A stretch of 64,000 bases of DNA, taken from contig NZ_JAJEWK010000002.1 in NCBI RefSeq assembly GCF_020687745.1, forward strand, positions 62,001 to 126,000, read 5' to 3'. Made by a program: the position numbers and the translations under genes. Shown here piece after piece: positions 49,485 through 50,390 of the stretch (position 1 is the stretch's first letter; the number at the start of each line of letters is the position of its first letter). The notes under the pieces were generated by a model. The model was not told the DNA's origin and ran no database searches. It worked only from the letters and a program-made list of their open reading frames with translations. Source of the DNA: Chryseobacterium sp. MFBS3-17 (GTDB lineage Bacteria > Bacteroidota > Bacteroidia > Flavobacteriales > Weeksellaceae).

Positions 49485-49486
49485 CG

Positions 49487-49558
49487 TAGCCCGTAGGGGA
49501 ATCGAACCCCTCTTACCAGAATGAAAATCTGAGGTCCTAACCGATAGACGAACGGGCC
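49487..49558 (-). tRNA. tRNA-Glu (anticodon TTC), copy 1
   Basis: A full 72-base tRNA. The acceptor stem pairs GGCCCGT with ACGGGCT and has discriminator A; CCA is not encoded. The anticodon stem pairs TCAGA with TCTGG, with one wobble, around loop TTTTCAT, giving anticodon TTC. The T-arm has GGGTTCGATTCCC-type sequence. It lies 14 bases after the end of rpsT on the same strand and 2 bases before a terminator. Confidence 0.95.
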
Positions 49559-49572
49559 GGACTCTTTATGAA

Positions 49573-49827
49573 TTAAGCCAGTTTGTTAACGTGCTTAGTT
49601 AATTTGCTTTTAATGTTGGCTGCTTTGTTTTTGTGGATGATGTTTTTCTTAGCCAGTTTATCCACCAAAGAGATTACTTTCGGAAGTTGCTCTGCAGCTG
49701 CAGTCTTGTCTTCCTCGCTTCTTAACACTTTAATTGCCGTTCTGGCAGTCTTATGATAATATCTGTTACGAAGTCTCTTCGCAGCATTTTGTCTGATTCT
49801 CTTTAAAGCTGATTTATGATTTGCCAT
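49573..49827 (-). CDS. rpsT: 30S ribosomal protein S20
   Basis: An 84-residue basic, helical protein starting [21 protein letters not shown], the diagnostic opening of S20. It binds 16S rRNA early in 30S assembly. It has its own full promoter (49850-49880) and lies between two tRNA-Glu genes on the same strand; the downstream one follows the stop by 14 bases, so they are likely read through together until the terminator at 49452-49484. Confidence 0.98.
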
Positions 49828-49849: not shown

Positions 49850-49880
49850 CAAAGATATACTTTATTTTTAAACCCGCAAA
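49850..49880 (-). promoter_or_regulatory. Promoter of rpsT
   Basis: On the minus strand: TTTG (49880-49877), a 19-base spacer and TATCTTTG (49857-49850). It lies 22 bases before the rpsT ATG and has the ideal spacing. Confidence 0.85.
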
Positions 49881-49916
49881 ATATTTTATTAAAATTTTTA
49901 TTTTTTTCTAAACTTG

Positions 49917-49988
49917 TAGCCTATAGGGGAATCGAACCCCTGTTGCAAGAATGAAAATCTTGAGTCCTAACCACTAGACGAATAGGCC
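49917..49988 (-). tRNA. tRNA-Glu (anticodon TTC), copy 2
   Basis: A complete 72-base tRNA. GGCCTAT pairs with ATAGGCT, with discriminator A; the anticodon stem CAAGA-loop-TCTTG surrounds TTTTCAT, giving TTC; the T-arm is intact. It differs from copy 1 in the acceptor, D-arm edge and anticodon stem. The first 15 bases also encode the last four codons and stop of the GIY-YIG gene (GGC CTA TTC GTC TAG). No TAnnTTTG element is seen directly upstream, so it seems to depend on transcription from 50361-50390, through the GIY-YIG gene. Confidence 0.95.
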
Positions 49989-50219
49989 GTTATTTTTCAA
50001 AAACTTTAAACCGTCGCTGCTTTTTAGAAACTTTTCTCTCTTTCTAGCAGAACTCCAGTCTTTATGAGTTTCTGTGTAGACAATTTCCCATGGAATATGT
50101 CCTTTTGTATATCTGTTTTTTCCTCCGTTATGCTCCTTCAGTCTTCTTTCTGCATCCTTCGCCATTCCCGTATACCTTGCTCCGTCTTTCGTACTCTTCA
50201 AAACATAAACAGTAATCAT
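49974..50219 (-). CDS. GIY-YIG endonuclease-family protein, 3' end inside a tRNA gene
   Basis: An 81-residue single-domain GIY-YIG nuclease-like protein. The catalytic residues of the fold are all there: Tyr5 (TVYVL), Tyr16 and Gly18 (YTG in place of YIG), Arg26 (ERRLKEHN), His30 and Glu62 (KREKFLKS). It ends with FLKNNGLFV; codons 78-81 and the TAG stop are tRNA-Glu positions 1-15, in register so that codon 78 starts at tRNA base 1. It lies between a broken tRNA-Glu and an intact one. Small proteins of this family are often of unknown role; here a link to tRNA-targeted insertion is my inference. Confidence 0.85.
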   Translation of the reverse strand: MITVYVLKSTKDGARYTGMAKDAERRLKEHNGGKNRYTKGHIPWEIVYTETHKDWSSARKREKFLKSSDGLKFLKNNGLFV

Positions 50220-50243
50220 TTTGCATTCATTTTTTGCTTTTAA

Positions 50244-50342
50244 ATGCGAATCTCTGTTGCAAGAATCCTGCCTGGCGGTAGACAGGCCTGCCTGGCGGTA
50301 GACAGGGAAAATCTTGAGTCCTAACCACTAGACGAATAGGCC
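50244..50342 (-). pseudogene. Broken tRNA-Glu copy with a 40-base insertion in the anticodon loop
   Basis: Bases 50307-50342 match the 5' half of tRNA-Glu copy 2 exactly, including acceptor strand, D-arm and the loop through the anticodon TTC; the identity goes on two bases beyond the tRNA 5' end. A 40-base insertion (50267-50306) follows, directly after anticodon base 36. Bases 50255-50266 then match the 3' anticodon stem and variable loop exactly. The T-arm is degenerate and the 3' acceptor strand is missing, so it cannot fold as a tRNA. A good promoter lies just upstream. Confidence 0.85.
50267..50306. repeat. Two tandem copies of a 20-base repeat
   Basis: The 20-base unit CCTGCCTGGCGGTAGACAGG occurs twice in direct, gapless tandem. 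On the minus strand each unit can fold into a small stem (CCTGTC with GGCAGG, one T-G wobble) around an 8-base loop. The base composition is much more G+C-rich than the surroundings. It splits the tRNA-Glu pseudogene after the anticodon. Confidence 0.9.
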
Positions 50343-50360: not shown

Positions 50361-50390
50361 CAAAATTAAACATTTAAAATGATTTTCAAA
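50361..50390 (-). promoter_or_regulatory. Promoter of the broken tRNA, GIY-YIG and tRNA-Glu unit
   Basis: On the minus strand: TTTG (50390-50387), an 18-base spacer and TAATTTTG (50368-50361). It lies 19 bases before the 5' end of the broken tRNA and is the only strong promoter seen before tRNA-Glu copy 2. Confidence 0.7.

Follow-up and report, generated by a model that had tools for sequence, protein, structure and literature searches.

A 354-bp block carrying a free-standing GIY-YIG nuclease gene interrupts and restores a tRNA-Glu gene in Chryseobacterium: a probable minimal homing element

Comparison of broken, intact and empty tRNA genes gives good support for placing the GIY-YIG open reading frame (ORF) of this stretch of Chryseobacterium sp. 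MFBS3-17 (the window, 64,000 nucleotides) in a 354-bp block that sits in a tRNA-Glu gene after nucleotide (nt) 36 and restores that gene. We consider it probable that the block is a minimal mobile element, in which a free-standing GIY-YIG nuclease, encoded within ~0.35 kb, inserts at a set position, here called X, within a tRNA gene and heals that gene. The insertion point in tRNA-Glu is immediately 3' of the anticodon, and the block consists in order of the palindromes, a tRNA remnant, the ORF and a new nt 1-36 segment of the tRNA, which continues into the original nt 37-73 (Table 1). What remains upstream is a broken tRNA-Glu (50247-50342) interrupted by two 20-bp palindromes between nt 36 and nt 37. 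Because the block carries the missing tRNA half, the host retains a working tRNA. The earlier note on this DNA overlooked the broken copy and the two palindromes directly upstream of the ORF, and the start that it gave, 49917, falls one base within the 3' end of tRNA-Glu at 49916. The ORF list places no recombinase gene in the 354-bp block, the only gene of GIY-YIG size being the ORF itself, and no group I ribozyme core lies between the tRNA halves, nt 36 and nt 37 being parted only by the 40-nt double palindrome.

Table 1. Features of the tRNA-Glu locus, in positions of the window
Feature	Position	Strand	Basis
Promoter-like site of the original tRNA-Glu gene (TTG, 18 nt, TAATTTTG)	50361..50389	-	Motif match; empty sites have equivalents ahead of tRNA-Glu
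Broken tRNA-Glu copy, nt 1-36 (end of the left flank)	50307..50342	-	Identical to the intact gene
Palindrome unit 1, CCTGTCTACCGCCAGGCAGG, immediately 3' of tRNA nt 36	50287..50306	-	Repeat comparison
Palindrome unit 2, identical to unit 1	50267..50286	-	Repeat comparison
Broken tRNA-Glu copy, nt 37-56 (90% identical), after which the match ends	50247..50266	-	Repeat comparison
GIY-YIG ORF, 81 aa + TAG, catalytic residues intact	49974..50219	-	ORF list, domain match, alignment, structure model
Overlap: codons 78-81 + TAG = tRNA nt 1-15	49974..49988	-	Sequence and ORF list
Block-borne copy of tRNA-Glu nt 1-36, restoring the tRNA	49953..49988	-	Broken versus intact copies; G192/G191
Intact tRNA-Glu(UUC)	49916..49988	-	tRNA call
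Whole inserted block, 354 bp	49953..50306	-	Broken versus intact copies; empty sites in G001-G003 and G191
rpsT (ribosomal protein S20), conserved neighbour that served to locate empty sites	49573..49827	-	ORF list
Second tRNA-Glu(UUC) gene, uninterrupted	49486..49558	-	tRNA call

The boundaries of the block are reproduced in other genomes. All three congeners (G001-G003) carry one uninterrupted tRNA-Glu before rpsT at the corresponding place, and the same place holds an empty tRNA-Glu in nearly all of about 30 further genomes, the exceptions being G192, which is occupied, and G287, which holds a decayed remnant; among the genomes checked, only the window's genome (G000) and G192 are thus occupied. 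Particularly informative is the same-genus pair of G191 (empty) and G192 (occupied), whose flanks are 95.8% identical: homology on the left stops at tRNA nt 36 and on the right begins again with nt 1 of the intact tRNA; deleting 321 bp from G192 yields the empty G191 allele at 96.4% identity. The G192 block has one palindrome unit where the window has two. The pair shows either a gain or a precise loss of the block.

The 81-aa protein matches the GIY-YIG domain PF01541 in a profile search (E 3.8e-14), with no match to PHROG or NCBIfam models, and residues Y5, Y16, G18, R26, H30 and E62 are invariant across an alignment of 44 proteins. In the structure model (mean pLDDT 96) the final helix stops at residue 76, with confidence dropping at the extreme end, such that the 81 residues comprise a single catalytic fold and a 5-residue tail, with no separate DNA-binding region. 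Characterised GIY-YIG homing enzymes possess a DNA-binding module, and SegB of the T-even phages is larger than the catalytic domain alone. That the 81-aa protein is the catalytic domain alone, lacking a region of the SegB type, counts against homing, as a lone catalytic domain offers no explanation for specificity towards site X. The copy in G192 is 89% identical and the ORF appears to be under purifying selection, omega between the two copies being about 0.02-0.04 with dS near saturation. Synonymous divergence between them is as saturated as in host genes, so that dN/dS gives no date for the insertion and a recent transfer between the two copies is unsupported.

Relatives were gathered by a protein-only scan of GTDB genomes, which returned 80 loci, and a survey of the order, with relatives in 51 of 395 genomes, added more. 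Of the scan loci, 75 had 150 nt or more on each side, and in 62 of these a same-strand tRNA lay within 100 nt of the ORF, as compared with 28 of the 916 other ORFs in those loci (3.1%); a tRNA on the opposite strand was that close in only 1 of 147. Two mirror layouts emerged. Class A (n=71) runs from a 5' tRNA fragment, usually through a palindrome, to the ORF and the intact tRNA, and a 5' fragment of the same tRNA lies upstream in 59 of these 71 loci (1/71 in the reversed control). Class B (n=27) runs from the intact tRNA through the ORF and a palindrome to a 3' fragment, with a fragment of the same tRNA downstream in 25 of 27 (reversed control, 1/27). The ends of the class A fragments cluster, 26 of the 59 falling at nt 21-22, and in tRNA-Glu here X lies at nt 36/37. 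At L116 (about 1424-1900) a 5' fragment of an rfbB-like dTDP-glucose dehydratase gene is followed by the ORF and then by the complete gene, a layout at a protein gene that indicates that healing is not restricted to tRNAs.

The relatives cover many tRNA isotypes and phyla, including Bacteroidota and Patescibacteria, and the target tRNA follows the protein tree, requiring 57 changes where shuffling gave a mean of 79.8, with none of 200 shuffles as low, on a tree of 83 columns in which many forks are unresolved and near-copies contribute to the clustering of targets. A group directed to tRNA-Leu(CAA) spans Bacteroidota and Patescibacteria. Target specificity thus appears to be inherited with the protein and to be common to distant hosts. 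Ten genomes have tandem arrays, with 2-8 copies whose spacing is mostly 359-388 bp. One of these genomes is the congener G002, where tRNA-Met is followed by a class B array (L134, 1200-2350) of three GIY-YIG copies; its palindrome is TCCGCCGCGGCGGA, and a 16S rRNA gene lies a short way downstream. Relatives at other sites, with no tRNA neighbours, comprise L013, L014, L016 and L138-L140, of which L014 and L016 (G217) are two near-identical copies with differing flanks. The well-supported pair L144 and L148 lies about 140-700 nt from a tmRNA gene in place of a tRNA, and a search for a flanking duplicate at these two loci found none. The 20-bp palindrome is also dispersed at non-tRNA places (L154-L172, in G255, G260, G261, G264, G279, G283, G287 and G292), in G255 and G260 within a longer repeat.

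A plasmid or phage vehicle is unsupported: the protein has no match among PLSDB plasmids, phage records contain only distant matches (46% identity or less, 79% coverage) in 11 records, and 9 matching loci were found among 2.9 million viral contigs. One of the viral contigs carries a relative 9 nt before tRNA-Arg(ACG) (L235:1289-1596); either host DNA or a copy borne by a phage could explain it.

The earlier note had centred on the end of the ORF, whose terminal GGC CTA TTC GTC TAG is tRNA-Glu nt 1-15, with codon 78 starting at tRNA nt 1, and the sequence and ORF list bear this out. It also suggested looking for the same overlap in related genomes: the tail, GLFV followed by the stop, is kept in the same register in G192 and in the decayed G287 copy, so that the in-register overlap is not a product of chance, and the loss of the frame in close relatives, which would have refuted the note's reading, did not occur. 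The ORFs of distant relatives also abut or enter the downstream tRNA, in other frames. Among the 71 loci with a downstream tRNA, the stop lies within the tRNA in 46, with all three frames represented and 42 of the stops being TAG, and the ORF ends before the tRNA in the other 25. The internal stops fall at tRNA nt 8-10 (21 ORFs), 21-23 (13), 13-15 (2, as in the window) and a few other positions, and the register that begins exactly at tRNA base 1 is confined to the tRNA-Glu lineage. Neither the conserved domain of the 44-protein alignment nor the predicted fold includes the tRNA-coded tail. As tRNA sequence directly follows the conserved domain in the class A block, these 46 ORFs end at whichever tRNA stop lies in their frame, and as all three frames are used the overlap follows from the layout of the block; it would seem to be a side effect of a compact block with half a tRNA at its end. 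C-terminal tails of this kind, SRSSAG and SGSSVG among them, are encoded by the tRNA in L029, L032, L034, L093 and others.

The proposal that a single transcript carries both ORF and tRNA also gained support. The only match to a Bacteroidota-type promoter (TTG-N18-TAnnTTTG; -7 box TAATTTTG at 50368-50361) upstream of the intact tRNA precedes the broken copy, the next match, at 49857, belongs to rpsT, and at empty sites the same promoter type stands just before the single tRNA-Glu. Given this arrangement, the intact tRNA-Glu and the ORF are likely co-transcribed, in which case RNase P cleavage at the tRNA 5' end would remove the last four codons and the stop, and it is plausible that RNase P processing and translation are mutually exclusive on one transcript.

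The block, its breakpoints, the empty sites, the recurrence and the tandem arrays are all apparent from sequence comparison, and a homing mechanism is likely to underlie them. We infer that the nuclease would cut an empty, intact tRNA gene at or near X and that homologous repair from an occupied allele would copy the block in. The carried part of the tRNA would rebuild an intact tRNA at one end of the block, while the other end would retain a broken copy marked by the palindrome. In the broken copy the palindrome disrupts X, which persists in the restored tRNA; re-cutting at X and unequal repair would consequently give tandem arrays. It counts against homing that, with the presumed target kept in the intact tRNA, self-cutting would have to be tolerated, and that the model gives no reason for the palindrome, which in some relatives also lies outside tRNA genes. 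Recombination between the tRNA duplicates may in turn remove the block cleanly. The lack of a stop codon of the ORF's own would follow from a block that ends directly in tRNA sequence, which would also place ORF and tRNA on one transcript. More tentatively, and with the balance of our judgement slightly against the full statement, these loci may represent an undescribed class of minimal bacterial homing elements that crosses phyla, in which GIY-YIG nucleases of 80-90 aa invade essential genes for non-coding RNA, the tRNA genes, heal them with a carried RNA half and borrow conserved tRNA nucleotides as a stop, the one transcript then being contested between tRNA maturation and nuclease synthesis. 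In the open-access literature we found no earlier description of this combination in bacterial chromosomes.

A different weight would fall on the overlap if it were a selected switch, with RNase P processing destroying the nuclease mRNA and keeping synthesis low. Likely co-transcription and conservation of the overlap in G192 and G287 would fit such a switch, as would the harm that self-cutting would do to the host, overexpression of SegB being inhibitory to growth of E. coli (PMC13096335), and a switch is compatible with the homing block as an added layer. However, the overlap is absent from 25 of 71 comparable loci and from all loci with the tRNA upstream, its frame and length vary with the tRNA, and the tail that it encodes is not part of the predicted fold, and we therefore regard a selected switch as rather unlikely. 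Still less probable is that the unit which moves is the palindrome, with the nuclease acting in trans as RAYT proteins do for REP sequences and the link to tRNA secondary. Within the family, the palindrome is indeed strongly enriched in genomes with the ORF (6 of 9 versus 7 of 311 without it; Fisher p 1e-7) and it falls exactly at X in many loci. Yet in the window's genome (2.64 Mb) the CCTGTCTACCGCCAGGCAGG palindrome is present only at this locus (at most 2 mismatches), its sequence varies between clades while the layout stays constant, genomes with dispersed palindromes are often without the ORF, and GIY-YIG enzymes are not known to join strands. That the palindrome is not tRNA-specific in all genomes weakens a pure REP/RAYT-like model, and an RNA role for it is unsupported, since folding of the broken tRNA region gave nothing beyond shuffled sequences (z -1.4).

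Two further readings were weighed. Integrated elements classically attach at tRNA genes and in many cases restore them, so the duplication could be the attachment-site repeat of a tyrosine-recombinase element shrunk to one passenger gene. We think this very unlikely, as the block is devoid of a recombinase, the same minimal block and gene recur in many phyla and also at a protein gene, and most loci restore the 5' side of the tRNA (71 versus 27), whereas classic integrated elements restore the 3' end; a non-exhaustive look saw no larger ancestor with both this GIY-YIG gene and an integrase. The remaining reading, a host housekeeping gene for a UPF0213/Slx1-like repair nuclease lying by chance in tRNA operons, draws on purifying selection and on the closest solved relatives by sequence, the UPF0213 proteins (1zg2, 1ywl) and SLX1, which have the GIY-YIG domain in common with the 81-aa protein and are not known to be either mobile or linked with tRNA genes. 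A patchy ORF, found in 9 of 320 genomes of the family and in decayed copies, argues against a housekeeping role, which would also leave the flanking broken tRNA copies and the tandem arrays unaccounted for; we give this reading hardly any credence.

Under the homing block that we prefer, the nearest experimental precedent is SegB of T-even phages (T6), a free-standing, intronless GIY-YIG homing endonuclease that cuts within tRNA genes and drives tandem segmental amplification, in which the tRNA 5' region recombines homologously with the segB 3' region (PMC13096335). Common to both systems are a GIY-YIG nuclease adjoining tRNA genes and tandem copies. SegB is phage-borne, whereas the block described here is chromosomal, encodes 81 aa and is almost absent from phage, viral and plasmid records; a broken tRNA half, a restored half and a palindrome, all present here, are not described for SegB. 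For the carried replacement gene end, the nearest precedent is provided by the fungal mitochondrial mORFs, for example in Allomyces atp6 and Glomus atp6, atp9, cox2 and nad3, in which a free-standing endonuclease ORF is inserted in a gene together with a replacement gene end and the displaced native end is left as a duplicate (PMC3630166). The mORFs are mitochondrial, occupy protein genes, replace the C-terminal part and encode LAGLIDADG or GIY-YIG enzymes; the present block, in contrast, is bacterial, occupies tRNA genes, usually replaces the 5' half and has a junction palindrome. Bacterial tRNA genes also contain group I introns with homing endonuclease genes, which likewise combine insertion in the anticodon-loop region with a nearby nuclease gene (PMC3984707). 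Unlike them, the block, at ~0.35 kb in total, has no room for a ribozyme, and a DNA duplicate rather than splicing restores the gene.

Should the homing reading hold, the block would rank with the smallest protein-coding DNA elements that spread themselves, and would show how a selfish nuclease can inhabit an essential RNA gene without killing its host. It would further account for the numerous GIY-YIG genes next to tRNAs, and the broken tRNA copies, that Bacteroidota and Patescibacteria genomes contain, and database proteins of this family can be expected to carry isotype-dependent, tRNA-coded tails. The locus raises two testable questions, namely how a lone GIY-YIG domain selects where to act within a tRNA gene, and whether the neighbouring mRNA is limited by RNase P processing.
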